Shown here: piece after piece, positions 20,960 to 32,503 of the stretch
How positions within the stretch are numbered: position 1 is the first letter of the stretch
Layout: each line of letters opens with the position of its first letter
Assembly (NCBI GenBank): GCA_020247085.1
Contig: JADCJJ010000570.1
Location: forward strand, 1 to 38,921
Length of the DNA: 38,921 nucleotides
Reading direction: 5' to 3'
Source of the DNA: Myxococcaceae bacterium
GTDB taxonomy: Bacteria; Myxococcota; Myxococcia; Myxococcales; Myxococcaceae
Program-made: the position numbers and the translations under genes
Notes under the pieces: model-generated
Told to the model about the DNA's origin: nothing
The model's database searches: none
Seen by the model: only the letters and a program-made list of their open reading frames with translations

Positions 20960-21862
20960 TCACCCCAGCAGCGCGTCCCACTCCTGCGCGCTCGCCACCA
21001 CCTTCGCCCCCAGGCCCTCGACGATGGCCCGGTGCGTCTCGGCCGCGCGGCCACCGATGATGAACCGCACGCCCTCGCCGCGCTCCTGCAGCAACTCCAC
21101 GAGCGTCTGGCGGAAGACGTCAGCCCCCTCGTCGTTGGCGACTGACAGTGCCACCAACTGCGGCTGCGTCACCCGCACCACCCGCGCGAGGTGCTCCGCC
21201 GGCGTGCGCGCGCCGAGGAAGGTGACGCGCCAGCCCGCGTGGCGGAAGCGCAGCGCGGCCCCCATCAGCCCCAGCTCGTGCTCGTCTCGCGGGAAGCACG
21301 CGCACACCACGTGCTGCTTCGTACGCCGCGGCGCCTGGTGCAGCAGCGCCACCACCCGCTGCCGCGCCGCCTGCGTGACGAGGTGCTCCTCGGCGATGGT
21401 GAGGTTGCCCGCGTGCCACCGCTCGCCGACCTCGCGCTGCAGCGGCGCCAGCACCTCTTCGAAGAACGCCACCGGCGGCATCGACGCCATCGCCTCGTCG
21501 AGCACCTGCTCGACCGACTGCTGGTCGAGCCGCTCGGCCGCCACCAGAATCTCCTGACGCCAGCGGTCCGTCTGGCCGGCCTTCGGGGCCCGCAGCGCGC
21601 CCCGCTCCGCCCGCTCCAGCGCCTCCTTCACGTCGCGCTTGATGCTCGGCAGCAGCTTCACCGCCTCTGCGATGGAGACCCCCTCTTCGGTGAGCTGCTT
21701 CAGCCGCTTCAGCACCGCGATGTCGCCCTCGGTGTAGGCGCGGTAACCCGACGGCGTGCGCCGGGGCTTGAGCACCCCGTAGCGGCGCTCCCAGGCCCGA
21801 ATGAGCCCCTCCGAGACGCCGCTCATCTCGGCGGCCACGTTGATGCGGTACGTGCGCTCCAT
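20960..21862 (-). CDS. carH: MerR-family B12-dependent photoreceptor/repressor, CarH type
   Basis: The 300-residue protein has a MerR winged-helix at 1-72 (Y-R-I-N-V-A-A-E-M-S-G-V, R-A-W-E-R-R-Y-G). It continues with a helical-bundle cobalamin cap at about 100-180 and a Rossmann-like B12 domain at about 183-300. Its light-sensing residues match Thermus CarH at a constant offset of 18. These are W149 (W131), H150 (H132, the ligand after photolysis), E159-H160 (E141-H142) and H195 (H177) inside D193-E-H195-E-L-G. In the dark, adenosylcobalamin should support a DNA-binding tetramer that represses the crt operon; light would release it. It is the last gene of the crt operon, coupled to the acyltransferase by TGATG. 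M. xanthus has two paralogues (carA and carH) at this place; only one is seen here, and residue conservation favours carH. Confidence 0.92.
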   Translation of the reverse strand: MERTYRINVAAEMSGVSEGLIRAWERRYGVLKPRRTPSGYRAYTEGDIAVLKRLKQLTEEGVSIAEAVKLLPSIKRDVKEALERAERGALRAPKAGQTDRWRQEILVAAERLDQQSVEQVLDEAMASMPPVAFFEEVLAPLQREVGERWHAGNLTIAEEHLVTQAARQRVVALLHQAPRRTKQHVVCACFPRDEHELGLMGAALRFRHAGWRVTFLGARTPAEHLARVVRVTQPQLVALSVANDEGADVFRQTLVELLQERGEGVRFIIGGRAAETHRAIVEGLGAKVVASAQEWDALLG

Positions 21863-23735: not shown

Positions 23736-24613
23736 GACTCGGCCTTCCCCAAGGCGCCAGCGGCGCCAGACGTTCCGTGAAACCGCTCGAAGTCCGCCAC
23801 CTCGGCGAAGGCGTGCCCCCCGCCGTCGCTCGCCTCGAGGCGCGCGTAGAAGGGCGAGGACTCGAGGGCCGTCGGCGCCCCACCCAGCCCCAGCTCCCGC
23901 GGCACCGACAGCCCCCAGCTCGACCGCTGCCTCGGGGAGGCCTCGTCGCGGCGAGACACCGAGAGCCGCCCGTCGGAGAGCTCGGCCACGATGGCCGGCG
24001 CGCCCCAGGGCCGCAGCCGCACGTCGGTGCGCTCGCCCCGGTGGGTGCGCACCTGGTCCCAGCCGCCGACGCCACCGGTGCCCAGCGGCACGTCGCCCGC
24101 GTGGCGGTCGTGCGCGCACAGGCCCTCGCGCGAGAGCTCGAGCGACGGCACCGACAGCCGCGCGACGCCCCGCAGGCACAGGGGCTGCCAGCGGTGCCGC
24201 TGGCCGACCACCACCAGGGCCTCGTCACCCGGCGGCGCGGCGGCGGTGACGTCGAGCCGCGCCTCGAGCGCCTCACCCCAGGCCCCGTGGGCGCTGGTGA
24301 CGCTCATCGAGAAGCCGTCGTCGCGGTAGCGCAGCGCCGAGCGCCCCAGCCGAAGCGTGCGCCCGTCGTCCTCGACGGAGACGGGCTGGTACTCGCTGAC
24401 GAGCCAGGCCACGCGCACGCCCTGCTGGTAGAGCGCGAAGTGCACCGCCGCGTGCTCGCGGGGCGCGCCGCCCTTCATGTGCGAGCCCGCGTACCGGCCC
24501 GAGAAGACGCTCCCCAGCATGAAGGCGAACAACGCCGTCACGTCGCCGGCGACGACGTCAGCCGAGTACCAGCGATAGGCGCCGCCCGGCGCGGGCACGT
24601 CGACGCGCGTCAC
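23732..24613 (-). CDS. crtC: Carotenoid 1,2-hydratase
   Basis: The 293-residue protein resembles CrtC (acyclic carotenoid hydratase), which adds water across the 1,2 double bond of the psi end group. Visible features are the N-terminal Y-R-W-Y-S-A-D-V and F-M-L-G-S-V-F-S segments, H-x-A-V-H-F-A-L-Y, and a predominantly beta fold with many tryptophans. The GTG start at 24613 overlaps the upstream desaturase stop (GTGA), and the stop overlaps the glycosyltransferase start. It provides the tertiary hydroxyl needed for glycosylation by the next gene. The family identification rests on pattern and on operon position. Confidence 0.85.
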   Translation of the reverse strand: MTRVDVPAPGGAYRWYSADVVAGDVTALFAFMLGSVFSGRYAGSHMKGGAPREHAAVHFALYQQGVRVAWLVSEYQPVSVEDDGRTLRLGRSALRYRDDGFSMSVTSAHGAWGEALEARLDVTAAAPPGDEALVVVGQRHRWQPLCLRGVARLSVPSLELSREGLCAHDRHAGDVPLGTGGVGGWDQVRTHRGERTDVRLRPWGAPAIVAELSDGRLSVSRRDEASPRQRSSWGLSVPRELGLGGAPTALESSPFYARLEASDGGGHAFAEVADFERFHGTSGAAGALGKAES

Positions 24614-26034
24614 GAGCGGCCTCCCAGGTGCGCAGCGGCGAGGCCGGCGGCGAAACGCCCCGACAGCATCACCAGGGGTACGCCCCCACCGGGGTGGGTA
24701 CCGCCGCCGGCGAAGAAGAGGCCCGGCACCGCGCCGCGAATCGCCGGCCGGCGGAAAGGGCCGAACCGACCGTGCGGCAGATAGCCGTAGATGGAGCCCC
24801 GCGGCGCACCCTTCTGCTGCAGGTCGACCGGCGTGCGCTCGGCCACCGCCGTCAGCGTTACGCCCTCGAGCTCAGGCGCCATCTCGCCCGCGCGTTGGCG
24901 GATGAAGCCCTCGAGCCTGCGTGCGTGCTCTGGCCAGCGCGCCTCTTCCCCCTCGGGCATCGGCGGTACGTTCACCATCGCGTAGAGCCCGCTGCGACCG
25001 GCCGGCGCCATCGTCTCGTCGGTGGCCGCCGGGTGGCAGAGGTGCACCGTCAGCTCGTCGGCCACGCGGCCGCGCCCGAGCGCGTCGAACTCCCGCGCGT
25101 AGTCCGCGGTGAAGAGAATGGTGTGGTGCGGCAGCGCCAGGCGCGCCGGCGCCTCGAACATCGCCACGTAGCCCGACATGGTGAGCGGCTGGTCGGCGCG
25201 GCCCTCGTGCTGCAGTGGGTCGGCGTTGACGACGACGGCGTCGAAGGCCCGCTCGTCGACGATGAACTCGGCCCCGCGCATCGACTGGGTGGCCTTGCGG
25301 CCCAGCACCACCTCGACGCCGTTGCGCCGCGCCGCCTGCTCGAGGCCGCGCACGATGCCGCCGAGGCCACCCACCGCGTGGTGCACCCCGAAGGCGCGCT
25401 CGATGTGGGCGATCATCGCGAAGGCCGCGTTGGCCTCGTAGGGCGAGGCGCCCGCGTAGGTGGCGAAGCGGCCGACGAACTGCCGCAGGTGGGGCCCGCG
25501 AAAGTGCGCCCGCGCCAGCGCGTCGAGCGTCGACAGCTTGAGGCCGGTGACGAGCGTCGACAGCCCGTTGCGCGCGGCCCGCGCCATGAACCCCATCATC
25601 GTCTCGTACGGCGCCTCGAGGTACGGCTGCCCCGCGGCGCGGTAGACGACCTCGGCCTCGCGGAAGAAGGCGCGCAGGGCCCTGCCGCCGCCGGGCTCGA
25701 GCGCCTCGGCCCCCTCGGCGGCCTGCTCGAGCGACTCCCAGCAGTCGAAGACGCGCCCGTCGGGCCAGCGGTACCGCGTCTGCAAGGGCACCCGCAGCAG
25801 GCGCGGCATCAGGTCTTCGGCGCCCAGCTCGGCGAAGGTGGCGCGCACCGTGTCGGGCATCGTCATCACCGTCGGCCCGGTGTCGAAGGTGAGCCCGCCC
25901 ACGCGCACCGAGCCCGCCTTGCCGCCCAGCGCGTCGGTGGCCTCGAAGAGCGTGACCCGGTGGCCCTGCCGGGCGAGCACGCCCGCGGCCGTCAGGCCAC
26001 CGATGCCTCCGCCGATGACGGCCACGCGCTTCAT
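24610..26034 (-). CDS. CrtI/CrtD-type carotenoid desaturase
   Basis: The 474-residue flavoprotein starts with V-I-G-G-G-I-G-G-L-T-A-A (residues 5-16). It includes the family's F-E-A-x-x-x-L-G-G-K-A-G block, F-D-T-G-P-T-V near residue 50 and the C-terminal F-F-A-G-G-G-T-H-P-G-G-G-V-P flavin/substrate motif. It could be a second phytoene/carotene desaturase (CrtIa role) or a CrtD-like 3,4-desaturase of hydroxylated carotenes. Its place directly before crtC fits either. The THPGGGVP sequence is shared by both groups, so the exact step is not decided. The ATG at 26034 overlaps the HMG-CoA reductase stop. Confidence 0.85.
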   Translation of the reverse strand: MKRVAVIGGGIGGLTAAGVLARQGHRVTLFEATDALGGKAGSVRVGGLTFDTGPTVMTMPDTVRATFAELGAEDLMPRLLRVPLQTRYRWPDGRVFDCWESLEQAAEGAEALEPGGGRALRAFFREAEVVYRAAGQPYLEAPYETMMGFMARAARNGLSTLVTGLKLSTLDALARAHFRGPHLRQFVGRFATYAGASPYEANAAFAMIAHIERAFGVHHAVGGLGGIVRGLEQAARRNGVEVVLGRKATQSMRGAEFIVDERAFDAVVVNADPLQHEGRADQPLTMSGYVAMFEAPARLALPHHTILFTADYAREFDALGRGRVADELTVHLCHPAATDETMAPAGRSGLYAMVNVPPMPEGEEARWPEHARRLEGFIRQRAGEMAPELEGVTLTAVAERTPVDLQQKGAPRGSIYGYLPHGRFGPFRRPAIRGAVPGLFFAGGGTHPGGGVPLVMLSGRFAAGLAAAHLGGRS

Positions 26035-27314
26035 GGGGCTGGCGCGCCTCCGCGCAGCTCGGCCAGCACCTGCGCCGCGCGCTCTGGCCGGTAGCACCGC
26101 TCGGTCGAGAGGCGCGCGGCGACGGCCGGTCCCTCGGCGGCGACGCGCCGCGCGTACAGCGCCATGTGGCCGCGGTTGATGCCCTCGGTCGACCGCGCCC
26201 GCAGCGCCGCGAGGTTCGAGGCCAGCCCCGCGGCCGCCGCCAGCACGCCCAGGTCCGTCGCCGACGAGACGCGCGCCAGCTCGAGCGCCAACCGCACGCC
26301 CGCGTGGTTGCGCGCCGCCCCGCCCACCATCGAGGTGGCGAGCGGCAGCGTCAGCTCGCCCGAGAGGGCCTCGCCGTCGCAGCGCCAGCGGGTGAGCGGC
26401 GCGGAGGCACCGCCCCGGCAGGCGTAGGCGTGCGCCCCGGCCTCGACGGCGCGCCAGTCGTTTCCGAAGGCGAGCAGCACCGCGTCGACGCCGTTCATCA
26501 CGCCCTTGTTGTGGGTGACGGCCCGGTACACGTCGGACTCGGCGAAGCGCTGCGCCTCGACGACGCGGCGCGCCACCAGCCCGCCGTCGGGGAAGTCGGC
26601 CGTCGCGAGGGCCGCCACCGGCACGCGGCAGCGCACCGTCACCTTCAGGCGGTCGGCGAGGTTGGTGAGAAGGCGCAGGCCCGCACGCCCGCCCGTCAGC
26701 GCCTCGAGCGACGGCGCCAGGCCCTCGGCCACCGTGTTGACGGTGTTGGCACCCATGGCGTCACGCACGTCGACGTGCACGTGCACCACCAGGCCGTCGC
26801 CGACGAGCCGCACCTCGAGCTCGCGGGCGCCGCCGCCCCGCGCCACCATCGAAGGAATGAGGGCGTCGGCCTCGGCCAGCAGCGCCGGGGCCGCGGCGAG
26901 GAGCCGAGCGCGCGCGCTGGCGACGTCGGCCACCTCGAGCAGCTGCACCCGGCACGTCAGCACCGGCGCGGCGGCCTCGCTGGCGAAGCCGCCGCCTTCG
27001 CGCACCAGCCGCGCTGCTCCGCTCGCCGCGGCCACGATGCCCGGCTCCTCGACGCTCATCGGCACCACGCGGTCGACGCCATCGACCCGGAAGTTGAGCG
27101 CCACGGTGAGCGGGAGCGCGTGCAGGCCGATGACGTTCTCGCTCATCGCGTCGGCGTCGGCCTCATTGAGCCCCCCGCCCGCCTGCTCCAGCGCCCGCGC
27201 GCGCTCGCTCGACAGCCACGTCGAGTCCACCAGGCGCTGCCGGCGCGCCCGCCCGTCGAGCCGAAGGAAACCCGGGAGCCTCGCGCTCTTCGGGACCCGC
27301 TCGAGCACGCTCAC
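26031..27314 (-). CDS. mvaA: Hydroxymethylglutaryl-CoA reductase, class II (Pseudomonas mevalonii type)
   Basis: The 427-residue protein is the length of the P. mevalonii enzyme and keeps its catalytic set at matching spacing: E90 (E83), K270 (K267), D286 (D283) and H383 (H381). Motifs seen are S-E-N-V-I-G, D-A-M-G-A-N-T-V-N-T, T-H-N-K-G-V-M-N-G and R-G-H-M-A-L. It interconverts HMG-CoA and mevalonate; in the synthetic direction it feeds isoprenoid supply. The GTG start at 27314 overlaps the crtB stop as GTGA and is preceded by GGGAGG. Sitting inside the carotenoid operon, it would raise mevalonate flux when the operon is induced. Class II enzymes can also work catabolically, but the context argues for synthesis. 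Confidence 0.9.
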   Translation of the reverse strand: MSVLERVPKSARLPGFLRLDGRARRQRLVDSTWLSSERARALEQAGGGLNEADADAMSENVIGLHALPLTVALNFRVDGVDRVVPMSVEEPGIVAAASGAARLVREGGGFASEAAAPVLTCRVQLLEVADVASARARLLAAAPALLAEADALIPSMVARGGGARELEVRLVGDGLVVHVHVDVRDAMGANTVNTVAEGLAPSLEALTGGRAGLRLLTNLADRLKVTVRCRVPVAALATADFPDGGLVARRVVEAQRFAESDVYRAVTHNKGVMNGVDAVLLAFGNDWRAVEAGAHAYACRGGASAPLTRWRCDGEALSGELTLPLATSMVGGAARNHAGVRLALELARVSSATDLGVLAAAAGLASNLAALRARSTEGINRGHMALYARRVAAEGPAVAARLSTERCYRPERAAQVLAELRGGAPAP

Positions 27315-28369
27315 GAGGCCTCCCGCCGGGGCAGGAACGCCTCGAGGCGCGGGAGCGGCACGTCGTCGCGCGCGCCCCGGGCGCCCGGGTTCGGGGTGAG
27401 CAGCACGCCGGCAGCCCGCAGCAGCTTGCCGCCCAGCGGAAGGTGGGCGCGCGCCCGGAAGACGTCGAAGCCACGGCGCTCGATGTCCGAGAGGATGGCG
27501 CCGTACACCGCCGCCATGAGGCGCACCACCCGCTGGCTGCCGAAGCCGCGCAGGTCGGGCACGCCAAAGAGCGCGCGCCGGTAGAAGGCCCGGGCCCGGG
27601 CCACCTGGAACTGCATGAACGCCGTCCATTCGCGCCAGCGGCCGGCGGGCACCGGCGCGCCGTGGCGCCAGGCCTCAAGCTCGGCGTGCCCGAGACCGAA
27701 CGCGGCCAGCTCGTCCGCCGGCAGGTAGACCCGGCCGCGCGCCAGGTCCTCCTTCACGTCGCGCAAGATGTTGGTGAGCTGCATCGCCACGCCGAGGTCG
27801 GCGGCGAAAGGCAGGCAGCGGTCGTCGGCGTGGCCCAGCACCGGCGTCATCATCTCGCCGACGACGCCCGCCACCCGGTAGCAGTACTGGTGCAGCTCGC
27901 CGAACGTCGCGTAACGCACCTTCGACAGGTCCATCTCCATGCCCGAGATGAGCTCCTGGAAGGGCCGCTCGGGGATGCCATAGCGCGCCACCGTGTCGCG
28001 GAAGGCGGCGGCCTCGGACTCGTGCCAGGGCAGCTCTCTCCACGAGGCAGCCGGCGTGCCGCCGTAGAGCGACGACACCGCGGCCCGGGCGAGCGACAGC
28101 CGCTGCGCCAGGGTGGCCGGCGCGCCGGCAGGAGCCGACACCGTGCCGTCGCCCCGGTTGTCTCCGTCGACCAGGTCGTCGAGGCGCCGGCAGAAGGCGT
28201 AGAGCGCGAACGCGCCCCGGCGCCGCGCGCCGAACAGCACCACGCTCGAGAAGAAGAACGAGCGCGCGTGCTGCCGCGTCAGGGCCTTCGCCCGCGCGTA
28301 CCCCTCGGACAGCATCGCCGACGGTGCCGCCTCCGGTCCCACGGCCAGCGCGGTAGCCGAGCCCATCAT
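27311..28369 (-). CDS. crtB: Phytoene synthase
   Basis: The 352-residue squalene/phytoene synthase family enzyme condenses two GGPP to phytoene. Both aspartate-rich motifs are present: R-R-L-D-D-L-V-D near residue 70 and N-I-L-R-D-V-K-E-D near residue 210. The R-x-H-A-R-S-F-F start of the domain and Y-C-Y-R-V-A-G-V-V-G are also clear. The start is the first ATG of ATGATG at 28369, with GGAGG seven bases upstream; that ATG overlaps the stop of a 58-residue ORF (ATGA). The stop overlaps the HMG-CoA reductase start. Confidence 0.95.
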   Translation of the reverse strand: MMGSATALAVGPEAAPSAMLSEGYARAKALTRQHARSFFFSSVVLFGARRRGAFALYAFCRRLDDLVDGDNRGDGTVSAPAGAPATLAQRLSLARAAVSSLYGGTPAASWRELPWHESEAAAFRDTVARYGIPERPFQELISGMEMDLSKVRYATFGELHQYCYRVAGVVGEMMTPVLGHADDRCLPFAADLGVAMQLTNILRDVKEDLARGRVYLPADELAAFGLGHAELEAWRHGAPVPAGRWREWTAFMQFQVARARAFYRRALFGVPDLRGFGSQRVVRLMAAVYGAILSDIERRGFDVFRARAHLPLGGKLLRAAGVLLTPNPGARGARDDVPLPRLEAFLPRREAS

Positions 28370-28542
28370 CGTCCGCCCTCCGCCGCGCCAGAGGAGCTGC
28401 GCCCGAACTCCTCGGCCCCCGCGGGGCGGGCCCACGCCTCGACTGGCCCCGAGCCCACCACCACCTTTGCGAGCGCCGCGCGCGCACGCACCCGGGGCCC
28501 GAGCGCCTCGACGGGCGGCGCGCTGGCGGAGGGCGCGCGCAT
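28366..28542 (-). CDS. Candidate small protein between crtIb and crtB (58 residues)
   Basis: The gap between crtIb and crtB holds a 58-codon frame whose ATG (28542-28540) shares a base with the crtIb stop (TGATG). Its TGA (28368-28366) overlaps the first ATG of crtB (ATGA). Both junctions are the kind used at every other boundary of this operon, so ribosomes would pass from crtIb through it to crtB. The product is Ala/Pro/Gly-rich with a basic centre (G-P-R-V-R-A-R-A-A-L-A-K-V-V-V-G) and no membrane helix; I recognise no family. It may be a real small protein, or a translated spacer whose role is only coupling. Comparison with relatives would separate these. Confidence 0.5.
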   Translation of the reverse strand: MRAPSASAPPVEALGPRVRARAALAKVVVGSGPVEAWARPAGAEEFGRSSSGAAEGGR

Positions 28543-30098
28543 CAGGCCTGCGCCTCCAGCCGCGCCGCCGCGGGCAACGACACCTCGGCCGACGGCGCAC
28601 CGCCGCCGACGCGCCCGGCCGGCTTCACCGACGCGCGCTGCGCGATGGCGCTCACGCAGAGGTCGGCCGAGATCATCACGGTCGGCACGCCGGTGCCCGG
28701 CTGCACCGAGGCGCCGCAGTAGAAGAGGTCGCCGATGCGGTCGTCCCACACCTTCGGGCGGAACGGCCCGATCTGGAACATGTTCTGTGCCAGCCCGAAG
28801 TTCGAGCCGCGCTCGAGGTTGAGCTGCGCCTCCCAGTCGTCGGGGGTGATGACGCGCTCGACCTCGACGTCCCGCTCGAGCGAGCCGAGGCCGAGCTCGG
28901 CGAGGCGGGCGAAGACCTTCGCGCGCACCTTCGGCCCCTCGACCTTCCAGTCGAGGTGCGGCGCGCGGTGCGGCACCGGCACCAGCACGTAGAGCGCGTC
29001 CTTGCCCGGCGGCGCCATCGACGGGTCCGTGTGCGCAGGCGCGTTGACGTAGAAGCTCGGGTCGTCGGGCACCTTCAGGTCTTCGAAGATGTCGCGGAAG
29101 CTGCCCTCAAAGTCGCGCCCGAAGTACACGTTGTGATGGAGCAGCTCGTCGTAGCGGCGCTTGACGCCGAGGTAGAGCATGTAGCCCGACGACGTGTACC
29201 GCTTCTTCTCGAGTTCTGGCCGGCTCGACACGGCCTGGTCGATGAGGTGCTTGGCCGCCCACGGGTAGTCGGCGTTGCACACCACGACATCGGCCCGCTC
29301 CCGGGTGCCGTCGGCGAGCGTCACCCCGGCGGCGCGGCCCTGCTCGACGTCGACGCGGCGCACCTCGCGGCGGTAGTGCAGCTTCACGCCGAGTTCGAGA
29401 CACACCTTCTCAAGCGCCCGAGGGATGGCGCCCATGCCGCCCTTCGGGTACCAGATGCCGACGGCGAGCTCGGTGTAGGGCAGCAGCGAGAAGACCGCCG
29501 GCGCCTCGAAGGGCGACACGCCCAGGTACATCGTCTGGAAGGACATCGTCTGGCGCAGCCGCTCGTCGCGGAACGACTTCGACACCTGGCTGAAGAGCCG
29601 CTGGTGCGCCCCGATGCGGAAGATGTGCGGCAGGTTCGCCGGCGTGAGGAACTGCGGCAGCGAGTCGAAGTGTCTGGTGACGAAGCGCTCGAGCGAGGTG
29701 TCGTGGCGGTCGCGGCCCTTCGCGAGGAAGCGCAGGTAGCGCTCGAAGCTGCCCGGCTCGAGGCGCTCGAGCTCGTCGCGCATGCGCGTCAGCTCGCTGG
29801 TGAGCGTGATGGTCGAGTCGTCACGGAAGGTGACGCGGTAGTTGGGGTCGCAGCGCGTGAGCGTGAGGTAGTCGGCCAGCTTCCGCCCCACCGAGGCGAA
29901 GGCCTGCTCGAAGACGAACGGCATCAGCATGATGGTGGGCCCGAGGTCCCACGTGAAGCCGCCGGCCTCGACGCGCCCGCACCTGCCGCCGGGCACGTCG
30001 AGCTTCTCGTAGAGATCCACCTGCCAGCCCTGGTGGGCGAGCTTCATCGCGGCGGTGAGCCCGCCGACGCCGGCGCCGATGACGAGGGCGCGGCTCAC
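28542..30098 (-). CDS. crtIb: Phytoene desaturase (CrtI family)
   Basis: The 518-residue flavoprotein begins with V-I-G-A-G-V-G-G-L-T-A-A (residues 6-17), then Y-E-K-L-D-V-P-G-G-R-C-G and W-D-L-G-P-T-I-M. It ends with Y-C-G-A-S-V-Q-P-G-T-G-V-P-T-V-M, the FAD-binding CrtI signature, and a C-terminal membrane-binding tail. It introduces double bonds into phytoene. As second gene after crtE it matches the position of crtIb in the M. xanthus carB operon, which is why I use that symbol. The GTG start at 30098 overlaps the crtE stop as GTGA. Confidence 0.9.
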   Translation of the reverse strand: MSRALVIGAGVGGLTAAMKLAHQGWQVDLYEKLDVPGGRCGRVEAGGFTWDLGPTIMLMPFVFEQAFASVGRKLADYLTLTRCDPNYRVTFRDDSTITLTSELTRMRDELERLEPGSFERYLRFLAKGRDRHDTSLERFVTRHFDSLPQFLTPANLPHIFRIGAHQRLFSQVSKSFRDERLRQTMSFQTMYLGVSPFEAPAVFSLLPYTELAVGIWYPKGGMGAIPRALEKVCLELGVKLHYRREVRRVDVEQGRAAGVTLADGTRERADVVVCNADYPWAAKHLIDQAVSSRPELEKKRYTSSGYMLYLGVKRRYDELLHHNVYFGRDFEGSFRDIFEDLKVPDDPSFYVNAPAHTDPSMAPPGKDALYVLVPVPHRAPHLDWKVEGPKVRAKVFARLAELGLGSLERDVEVERVITPDDWEAQLNLERGSNFGLAQNMFQIGPFRPKVWDDRIGDLFYCGASVQPGTGVPTVMISADLCVSAIAQRASVKPAGRVGGGAPSAEVSLPAAARLEAQA

Positions 30099-31165
30099 CG
30101 GGCCCTCCGCACCATGCGGGCGATGAGGCCGTCGAGCACCACCCGGGCGCCAGAGGCCGCGGGCAGGGCCTGGAGCGTGCGCCGGGCCGAGCGCGTCATG
30201 CGCTCGATGACGCGCTGGGTGGCCTCGCGCCCGCCCCAGTGGTCGACCTCGCGCCGGGCCGCCGCGAGCGCCCTCGCGTCACGCAGGTCGCCGTCCCACA
30301 ACTGCTCGAGCCGGGCGCGGCCGGCGGCGTCGGCCCGCGTCCACGCCGCCACCACGGGGAACGTGCGCTTGCCCTCGACGAAGTCACCGCCGCCATCCTT
30401 CCCCGCGACGGCGTCGTCGCCGAAGAGGCCGATGACGTCGTCGCGCAGCTGAAAGGCGAGGCCCACCTGCCGCCCGACGCGCTCGAGCTGCTCGAGCAGG
30501 CCCTTGTCGGCGCCGCCCAGCATCGCGCCGGCGATGAGCGGCGCCACGAACCCGTAGCGGGCCGTCTTCAAGTTCGCGACCTTCAGCGTCTGGAACAGGT
30601 TCACCTCGGCCAGCGGCGTGCGCGCCAGGTCGATGTCGAGGTACTGACCGACCGCCGTGTGTCGGCAGATGCTCATCATGTACCGCGTCGCCTCGGGGGC
30701 GCGCGGCAGCCCGGAGCCGAGCATCACCTCGACGGCCCGCGAGTAGACGTGGTCGCCCACGACGACGGCCAGGTCCTCGCCCGACTTCCCCGCCGACAGC
30801 ACGCGGTGCAGCGCCGGGCCACCCCGCCGCACCGCCGCCCGGTCGGCCACGTCGTCGTGGATCAACATGAAGGTGTGCAGCAGCTCGAGCCCGGCCGAAA
30901 ACGCCTGCACCCCCGCCGGAACCCCCGAGCCCAGGCCACCGGCCGCGAACGCCCATCCCGACACCAGCAGCGTCGGCCGCACCCGCTTCGCCGGCCGCAG
31001 CGTGTAGGCCCGCAGCTCGACCATCGCGCGCGACCAGCGCGGGTCCATGGCCGCCTCGTCGGGCAGCACCAGGGCCTCGGCGAGCGCGCGCTCGAGCTCG
31101 CCCTGAAACGCCGCCAGCGCGGCCTCGGCACCCATTGGAATCGTCGATGTGGCGATGCTCGTCAT
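30095..31165 (-). CDS. crtE: Geranylgeranyl diphosphate synthase
   Basis: This 356-residue polyprenyl synthase has K60-R-V-R-P, the first aspartate motif H-D104-D-V-A-D108, and F-Q-L-R-D242-D-V-I-G as the second; the latter ends in Gly, as in some GGPP synthases. Other conserved pieces are G-D-H and K-T-A-type L-K-T-A near residue 200. It makes GGPP for phytoene synthase. I chose the ATG at 31165, which is preceded by AAAGGA about nine bases upstream; longer frames upstream run through the divergent gene. It is the first gene of the light-type operon, with a leader of about 50 bp after the operator region. Confidence 0.93.
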   Translation of the reverse strand: MTSIATSTIPMGAEAALAAFQGELERALAEALVLPDEAAMDPRWSRAMVELRAYTLRPAKRVRPTLLVSGWAFAAGGLGSGVPAGVQAFSAGLELLHTFMLIHDDVADRAAVRRGGPALHRVLSAGKSGEDLAVVVGDHVYSRAVEVMLGSGLPRAPEATRYMMSICRHTAVGQYLDIDLARTPLAEVNLFQTLKVANLKTARYGFVAPLIAGAMLGGADKGLLEQLERVGRQVGLAFQLRDDVIGLFGDDAVAGKDGGGDFVEGKRTFPVVAAWTRADAAGRARLEQLWDGDLRDARALAAARREVDHWGGREATQRVIERMTRSARRTLQALPAASGARVVLDGLIARMVRRAR

Positions 31166-31211
31166 TTCGAGAATCCTTTCGCGGCGCTTGGATGCCGGGG
31201 AGGGCGACGCG

Positions 31212-31250
31212 TTGCAGGGTTCGTACAACCTTTGTATAGCTGTCGTCCAA
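31212..31250. promoter_or_regulatory. Divergent promoter region with putative CarH operator
   Basis: A perfect inverted repeat TACAA-CCT-TTGTA lies at 31224-31236. On the crtE strand the same bases read TATACA then TGTACG, exactly 11 bp apart, with weaker matches (TGGACG, TGCAAC) one further step on each side. The CarH operator is described as 11-bp-spaced repeats of a TnTACA-like half-site. For the plus-strand gene, TTGCAG (31212) and TATAGC (31235) are spaced 17 bp, and the start ATG lies only 10 bp after, so the message would be nearly leaderless. For crtE, TTGGAC (31250-31245) with TGTACG (31227-31222) is a weaker candidate. A repressor here would block both directions. Confidence 0.55.
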
Positions 31251-31792
31251 TGCGGCGCGCAGCAATCAGATCCACGGCGCTGGTGGTGGCGCTGGTGGTG
31301 GCGCCGCTGGCGCTGGCGAACGGAGGCCCTGTCTTGGACGCAACCGTCGAGAATTCGAGTGGTTCTCACACCCGGCTGAGCACGCTGTGGCAGCGCCCGA
31401 CGGTGCTCTTCTACGAAGACCGGGACTCGACAGCGCTCAACCAGCACGTGAAGGACGCGCTGACGGAGCGGGCCCGGCAGCCGGGGTTGGCTCAGCAGGT
31501 GTCGGTGGTGGCGGTGGCGAACGTCGCCGCGTGGGACTGGTTCCCAGCGCGGAATTTCGTGCTCGCCGCGGTGAAGGACATCGAGAAGAAGTTCAACCTG
31601 CCCGTCTTCCTCGACTTCAAGGGGTCGCTGTCGAGCGCCCCGTGGAACCTGCCGTCGAACTCGTCGACGGTGCTGGTGCTCGACCCCAGCGGCCGCGCGG
31701 TGTGGCGCGCCCAGGGCCGGCTGAGCCTGGCGAAGGTCGACGAGCTCTTCGCCGAGCTCGAGCGGCTGGTGTTCGGGCACGCCACGCACTGA
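31250..31792 (+). CDS. Secreted thioredoxin-fold protein without redox cysteines
   Basis: The 180-residue protein begins with a signal peptide (positive start M-R-R-A-A-I-R, hydrophobic core to about residue 23, A-L-A-N cleavage region). The mature part has the thioredoxin-like order: R-P-T-V-L-F-Y-E-D strand, helix, V-S-V-V-A-V-A-N-V strand, S-T-V-L-V-L-D-P-S-G-R-A-V-W strand pair and final helix, similar to YtfJ-like proteins. It contains no cysteine, so it cannot be a classical redox thioredoxin. It diverges from the carotenoid operon with only 84 bp between start codons and shares the likely operator. Its role is unknown; oxidative or light-stress protection is a contextual guess. Confidence 0.68.
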   Translation: MRRAAIRSTALVVALVVAPLALANGGPVLDATVENSSGSHTRLSTLWQRPTVLFYEDRDSTALNQHVKDALTERARQPGLAQQVSVVAVANVAAWDWFPARNFVLAAVKDIEKKFNLPVFLDFKGSLSSAPWNLPSNSSTVLVLDPSGRAVWRAQGRLSLAKVDELFAELERLVFGHATH

Positions 31793-31867: not shown

Positions 31868-32503
31868 ATGAAACGCGCCCCGACGAAGCGAGCCATCAAG
31901 CAGGACCGCGCCGTGAAGACTCGGCACGAGATCCTCAACTCGGCCATCACGCTCTTCGCGCGCCGCGGCATCCTGGCGACGACGATGGCCGAGCTGGCGC
32001 GGGCGATCCACATGACGCCGGGGGCGCTCTACTGGCACTTCCCGACGAAGGAGGACCTGCTGCTAGCGGCCATCGAGGAGCTACACCAGCGCTTCGTCGC
32101 CAGCTTCGAGCCGATGCTGGCCCAGGCGTCGAAGATGACGGCGTTTCAGCAGCTGCAGTCGTTCGTCGAGCACACCGGCCGCTTCCTGCAGGACAACCGC
32201 GAGCACGGCATCTTCTACGGCATGGTGGGCGCCGAGGCGGCCGAGAACTCGGAGGACGTCGCCCAGGCGCTGCGCGACGCGCTGCAGGTGTACGTGCAGG
32301 CGGTGGCGAACATCATTCGCTACGGCCAGACGAAGACGAAGGAGTTCCGGGAAGACGTCGACGCCGCGACGCTGGCCAACGCCATCATCTTCGGGAACAT
32401 CGGCCTGGTGGTGCAGCACAACCTGTTCCGCGAGTCGCTGTCATACCAGCCGATGGTGCAGACGCTGTCGACGATGGTGCTCGACGGCGTGCGGCGAAGG
32501 TAG
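31868..32503 (+). CDS. TetR-family transcriptional regulator
   Basis: The 211-residue protein has the TetR N-terminal domain: R-H-E-I-L-N-S-A-I-T-L-F-A-R-R-G at 19-34, and a helix-turn-helix at about 36-60 with M-A-E-L-A-R-A-I-H-M-T-P-G-A-L-Y-W-H-F and K-E-D-L-L. The rest is an all-helical ligand domain of the AcrR/FadR type. It has a basic N-terminal arm (M-K-R-A-P-T-K-R). It is convergent with the beta-helix gene, with one base between the stops. The ligand and targets are unknown; the palindrome in its promoter suggests autoregulation, and the upstream thioredoxin-fold gene is also a possible target. Confidence 0.92.
   Translation: MKRAPTKRAIKQDRAVKTRHEILNSAITLFARRGILATTMAELARAIHMTPGALYWHFPTKEDLLLAAIEELHQRFVASFEPMLAQASKMTAFQQLQSFVEHTGRFLQDNREHGIFYGMVGAEAAENSEDVAQALRDALQVYVQAVANIIRYGQTKTKEFREDVDAATLANAIIFGNIGLVVQHNLFRESLSYQPMVQTLSTMVLDGVRRR

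Follow-up and report, generated by a model that had tools for sequence, protein, structure and literature searches.

The window analysed here, a stretch of 38,921 nucleotides, derives from a 7.36-Mb draft myxobacterial genome, which we compared with assemblies of Myxococcaceae and Archangiaceae, using about 80 genomes for the operator comparison. Pfam and profile matches place in the window a carotenoid operon that reads leftwards from crtE, the ATG of which is preceded by the Shine–Dalgarno sequence AAAGGA, and ends with carH (Table 1). An HMG-CoA reductase gene lies within the operon, as reported for some Cystobacterineae. The carH product combines a MerR domain with the B12-binding motifs used to recognize CarH, and the NCBIfam CarH model matches it with a score below the equivalog cut-off. 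No second full-length CarH/CarA homologue was found in the window genome. Contig C469 of the same genome nevertheless holds a carQRS operon (L147:875-2387), identified by an ECF sigma factor, an NrsF-type CarR and a CarS antirepressor with its SH3 domain, a combination also seen in Cystobacter.

Table 1 Features of the carotenoid operon and of the region between crtE and the divergent gene (window coordinates)
Feature	Position	Strand	Basis
crtE, geranylgeranyl diphosphate synthase, first gene of the operon	30095..31165	-	PF00348, 3.7e-47
crtI-type desaturase	28542-30098	-	carotenoid operon
HMG-CoA reductase	26031-27629	-	carotenoid operon
crtD-type desaturase	24610-26097	-	carotenoid operon
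carH, last gene of the operon	20960..21862	-	Pfam MerR_1 and B12-binding; Wx9EH, DxHxxG
Divergent gene, secreted YtfJ-like thioredoxin-fold protein with signal peptide, no cysteine	31250..31792	+	Pfam, alignment, AlphaFold, Foldseek
Predicted CarH operator, three tandem 11-bp repeats	31221..31253	-	matrix score, triple pattern, genus conservation
Repeat 1, core TGGACG	31249-31244	-	TnnAC core
Repeat 2, core TATACA	31238-31233	-	TnnAC core
Repeat 3, core TGTACG	31227-31222	-	TnnAC core
TGCAAC, weak fourth repeat; complements the divergent -35 box; possible ECF-type crtE -35	31211..31216	-	relatives
TACAACCTTTGTA, inverted repeat with non-conserved arms, by-product of two adjacent repeats	31224..31236	.	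sequence, relatives
TTGCAG, putative -35 box of the divergent gene	31212..31217	+	sequence, conservation
TATAGC, putative -10 box of the divergent gene, within the operator	31235..31240	+	sequence, conservation
CATC, possible ECF-type crtE -10, 16 nt past TGCAAC	31191..31194	-	spacing kept in 8/8 genomes; inferred

Divergent from crtE, on the opposite strand, lies a gene for a protein of 180 residues that matches PF09695 (YtfJ_HI0045; E 1.9e-6). Its AlphaFold model (pLDDT 83) retrieves ResA in Foldseek (E 6e-9), with further thioredoxin-fold matches to the predicted model. The initial annotation had likewise named the product a secreted thioredoxin-fold protein. A catalytic thioredoxin is excluded, as the protein has no cysteine: in alignment, the place of the active-site CxxC reads FYEDRDS. 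The gene adjoins crtE in nearly all loci examined first and was detected in 79 of the 96 genomes of the family. Across 36 genomes its occurrence is associated with that of crtE (23 with both, 7 with neither, 6 discordant; p = 6e-4). One discordant case (G031) is only apparent, the start of crtE being visible at a contig end, and another (G030) shows a weak match to the divergent gene; the 100% complete genome G090 has lost both. No mention of the gene was found in the Myxococcus literature that was searched. A TetR-type regulator gene (31868-32503) follows 75 nt downstream on the same strand, and the two may be co-transcribed. In another family of the order (L026, genome G036), the crtE/divergent-gene pair is accompanied by neither a CarH operator nor a full-length CarH.

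CarH binds direct repeats of the form nnnnTnnACAn (PMC9304148), and published functional CarH operators have between one and four full repeats and, in addition, pseudo-repeats. On the crtE strand, the region upstream of crtE reads TGGACG, TATACA, TGTACG and TGCAAC at an exact 11-bp pitch, which gives three repeats in register, one with a full TnnACA core and two with TnnACG. The initial annotation had correctly placed the half-sites TATAC (31238-31234) and TGTAC (31227-31223) exactly 11 bp apart on this strand; it had overlooked the third repeat, TGGACG, and the weak fourth, TGCAAC. With a matrix built from 52 TTGACA-type operators of other genera, the window genus being excluded, the three repeats form the top three-unit site of the window at 28.8 bits, compared with 3.8 bits for the next unrelated site and a maximum of 16.0 bits in 20 shuffles of the window. 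Three TnnACR cores at 11-bp pitch occur at two places in the 7.36-Mb genome, here and at one GC-rich place.

The initial annotation had also suggested looking for the 11-bp arrangement upstream of crtE in relatives, where the direct repeats indeed persist: each TnnACA core of repeats 1–3 retains three or four of its four positions, both in the window genome and in all seven near relatives compared with it. Full-length CarH is present in most family genomes that have crtE, and in genomes with CarH the operator mostly scores 19–37 bits, provided that all three repeats fall within the stretch scanned; in the window this stretch cuts repeat 1, so that 28.8 bits is the score to use there. Operators are weaker in G024 and G008 (L135). 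In G010 and G023, crtE and the divergent gene are present, CarH is absent and the operator is gone (about -10 bits). G018 keeps the repeats with CarH undetected, on a crtE contig that stops about 5 kb downstream, short of the expected carH. These comparisons strongly support the prediction that the site between crtE and the divergent gene is a CarH operator of direct repeats.

The initial annotation had further proposed that the promoter of the divergent gene overlaps this site. Its two boxes, TTGCAG and TATAGC, are 17 nt apart, and the ATG at 31250 follows 9 nt past the -10 box. Both hexamers are weak against consensus (3/6 and 4/6 positions), and a strict sigma-70 scan found nothing for the pair; what supports them as a putative promoter is comparative. 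The pattern TTGnnn-17-TATnnn occurs on the divergent strand in 65 of the 77 gene-bearing loci and in 0 of 6 gene-less ones (Fisher p = 5e-5, uncorrected for phylogeny and with six loci on the gene-less side), whereas control patterns were found in 2/77 loci when reversed and in 5/77 on the opposite strand. The gene-less loci with crtE belong to five genera (G002, G008, G009, G027, G065 and G066); the G027 contig begins about 270 nt upstream of crtE, and absence of the gene there comes from a genome-wide search. Strong CarH repeats are kept in five of the six. The boxes take the form TTGCGT-17-TATGTC/T in Myxococcus-type genomes and TTGCAG-17-TATAGC/A in the window genus, two members of which have TAGAGA or TACGAA as the -10 box.

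Within Myxococcus-type operators, of which 61 are distinct, the boxes can be followed repeat by repeat. ACATA, the complement of the -10 box, stands in DR3 in 59 of them and in other units in 0–2, and an ACGCAA-type sequence, the complement of the -35 box, occupies dr5 in 58 and no other unit; only 3 of the 61 retain TnnACA, the CarH core, at dr5. The divergent-gene boxes thus coincide exactly with the positions at which the repeats depart from the CarH consensus. In the gene-less G009, a perfect TGTACA stands at dr5, and the crtE boxes TTGACA and TACCTG are kept. Because the boxes replace the CarH consensus and vanish with the gene, the dr5 pseudo-repeat of published operators is most readily understood as a concession to the divergent promoter. 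Together with the contrast between gene-bearing and gene-less loci, this control inside the operator supports the proposed overlapping divergent promoter. In M. xanthus, the published footprint extends from -70 to -19 (PMC8156234) and would cover most of the divergent-gene boxes.

No mapped start site of the divergent gene was found in the literature. In the window, the leader of its mRNA would be about 0–4 nt long and would lack a Shine–Dalgarno sequence, and other members of the window genus have CCAATG or GCAATG at the same position. The nearly leaderless mRNA envisaged in the initial annotation is plausible for the window genus and does not extend to Myxococcus-type relatives; since these have a leader of about 30–37 nt with GAGG, counting about 37 nt past the -10 box, the near-leaderless form is a window-genus trait.

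Comparison across genomes provides good support for dual control by one CarH operator, and we consider it likely that a single operator of three repeats controls crtE and the divergent gene, with light derepressing both. In the dark, AdoCbl-bound CarH on this operator would cover three elements of the divergent gene, its -10 box, its start site and its start codon, together with the crtE promoter region. Light would break AdoCbl, and because CarH would then leave the shared operator, both transcription units would be derepressed together. The comparison shows the repeats, how they are conserved and go with CarH, and divergent promoter boxes that are conserved and depend on the gene being present; from it we infer CarH occupancy at this site, repression of both genes and their induction by light, and light regulation of the divergent gene probably follows from the promoter overlap. 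In published light/dark RNA-seq of M. xanthus and M. macrosporus (PMC11832031), the crt genes responded little.

Several other readings of the region were weighed against dual control by direct repeats. That TACAACCTTTGTA itself serves as operator for a conventional MerR-type dimer, in line with the inverted repeats that have been suggested for M. xanthus CarA (PMC9304148), seems to us very improbable. The element, which occurs once in the 7.36-Mb genome, had been described as a perfect inverted repeat; its 5-bp arms, TACAA and TTGTA, are perfectly complementary in the window genome, as they are in G003, but the 3-nt centre, CCT, is asymmetric. Among eight near genomes, that of the window included, the arms pair at 5, 5, 4, 2, 3, 4, 3 and 3 of 5 positions; they are thus down to 2–4 in six of the eight while the direct-repeat cores persist, and direct repeats are also the published CarH binding mode. 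We accordingly reject the palindrome as the functional unit and retain the site as a predicted CarH operator on the strength of its repeats. The boxes assigned to the divergent gene could likewise belong to the CarH site or to the crtE promoter and to nothing else, given that they overlap repeats 2 and 4 and that Myxococcus-type operators are invariant over much of their length. We regard this as improbable: gene-less genomes keep the CarH repeats and lose the boxes, and in G009 TGTACA replaces ACGCAA while TTGACA and TACCTG stay.

A less remote, though still unlikely, alternative is that CarH controls crtE alone, the divergent gene being constitutive or served by another promoter and the overlap arising from the short intergenic space. 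The weak hexamers of the divergent gene would suit such an arrangement, as would the co-regulated partners in S. cellulosum, which are carotenoid or regulator genes (PMC9304148). Yet the boxes fall inside the operator in 65 of 77 genomes and disappear where the gene is missing; the overlap is kept in Myxococcus-type genomes even though their intergenic space exceeds that of the window genus; and crtE is lost jointly with the divergent gene, as in G090. Dual control of crtE and the divergent gene remains our preferred reading.

The arrangement has known counterparts. It resembles the Pcrt (PB) operator of M. xanthus and Cystobacter fuscus (PMC9304148, PMC8156234) in having carH as the final gene of the crtE operon and tandem 11-bp TnnACA repeats upstream of crtE that overlap with promoter elements, putative ones in the window. 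The window differs in having three repeats, two of them with cores that end in G, in lacking both a TTGACA within a repeat and the crtE -10 box TACCTC, and in an operator that takes in the start codon of the divergent gene. The CarH operators of S. cellulosum, at crtI-carH and at crtE-crtD, each span two overlapping divergent promoters that are regulated by light and B12 (PMC9304148). One CarH operator over two divergent promoters is therefore already known, and what would be new here is the partner: a secreted thioredoxin-fold protein outside the carotenoid pathway instead of a carotenoid or regulator gene. We found no report in the literature of a conserved divergent partner in Myxococcaceae or of a double role for dr5. 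If dual control holds, the predicted CarH regulon of Myxococcaceae gains a widely conserved non-carotenoid gene, probably including the M. xanthus group, and the odd pseudo-repeat dr5 of published operators gains a reason, since it would at the same time act as the divergent gene's -35 box. The product of that gene, a periplasmic protein with a thioredoxin fold and no cysteine that is tied to carotenoid clusters, would also be a candidate for a role in photoprotection.

The M. xanthus crtE promoter reads TTGACA-18-TACCTC (PMC8156234), and these sigma-A boxes are absent in the window genus, which confirms the earlier remark that the crtE boxes of the window are weak. In neighbouring genera (G021, G018 and G066), crtE has TTGACC, TTGCAC or TTGACT followed, after 17 nt, by TATACA. 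In G021 and G018, the TATA of this promoter, read on the opposite strand, also gives the divergent gene its -10 box, much as bidirectional promoters of E. coli share a -10 element (PMC12825309). The window genus differs from these in lacking the crtE-side -35 box: the -35 of the TATACA-type promoter is gone, and the ATG of the divergent gene stands in its place. The candidate crtE promoter TTGGAC-17-TGTACG is unlikely, as it has no A at position 2 of the -10 box.

As a speculative alternative, TGCAAC-N16-CATC may act as a CarQ-type promoter of crtE. Over eight near genomes, identity is 0.375 in the inner spacer compared with 0.96–1.0 in the boxes. TGCAAC is present in seven of the eight; G002, which lost the divergent gene, has TGAAAC, with a 1-nt deletion between repeat 3 and TGAAAC and none between TGAAAC and CATC. 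The carQRS promoter reads [TG]GAAAC-N16/17-CGT[AC] across the family, and its form TGAAAC-N16-CGTA resembles the sequence before crtE, from which it differs in the -10 box, CATC here instead of CGT. Set against the ECF pattern GAAAC-N16-CGT, the crtE sequence has matching spacing, a near -35 (TGCAAC) and a deviating -10. It is an unlikely but noteworthy idea that crtE in the window genus is transcribed from an ECF promoter whose -35 complements that of the divergent gene and adjoins the CarH repeats, expression then needing both release of CarH and CarQ; both light pathways would in that case meet on one short stretch. A genome-wide scan for TGMAAC-N16-CATC gave a single other match and hence no regulon support, and a genome-wide promoter set of this form was rejected. 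This other match (L143:1500, TGMAACG-N14-GCATC) is on the contig that carries carQRS, some 1.5 kb downstream from carS, where it overlaps the start of a 132-aa ORF that stands just upstream of a gene for a metallo-beta-lactamase-fold protein.
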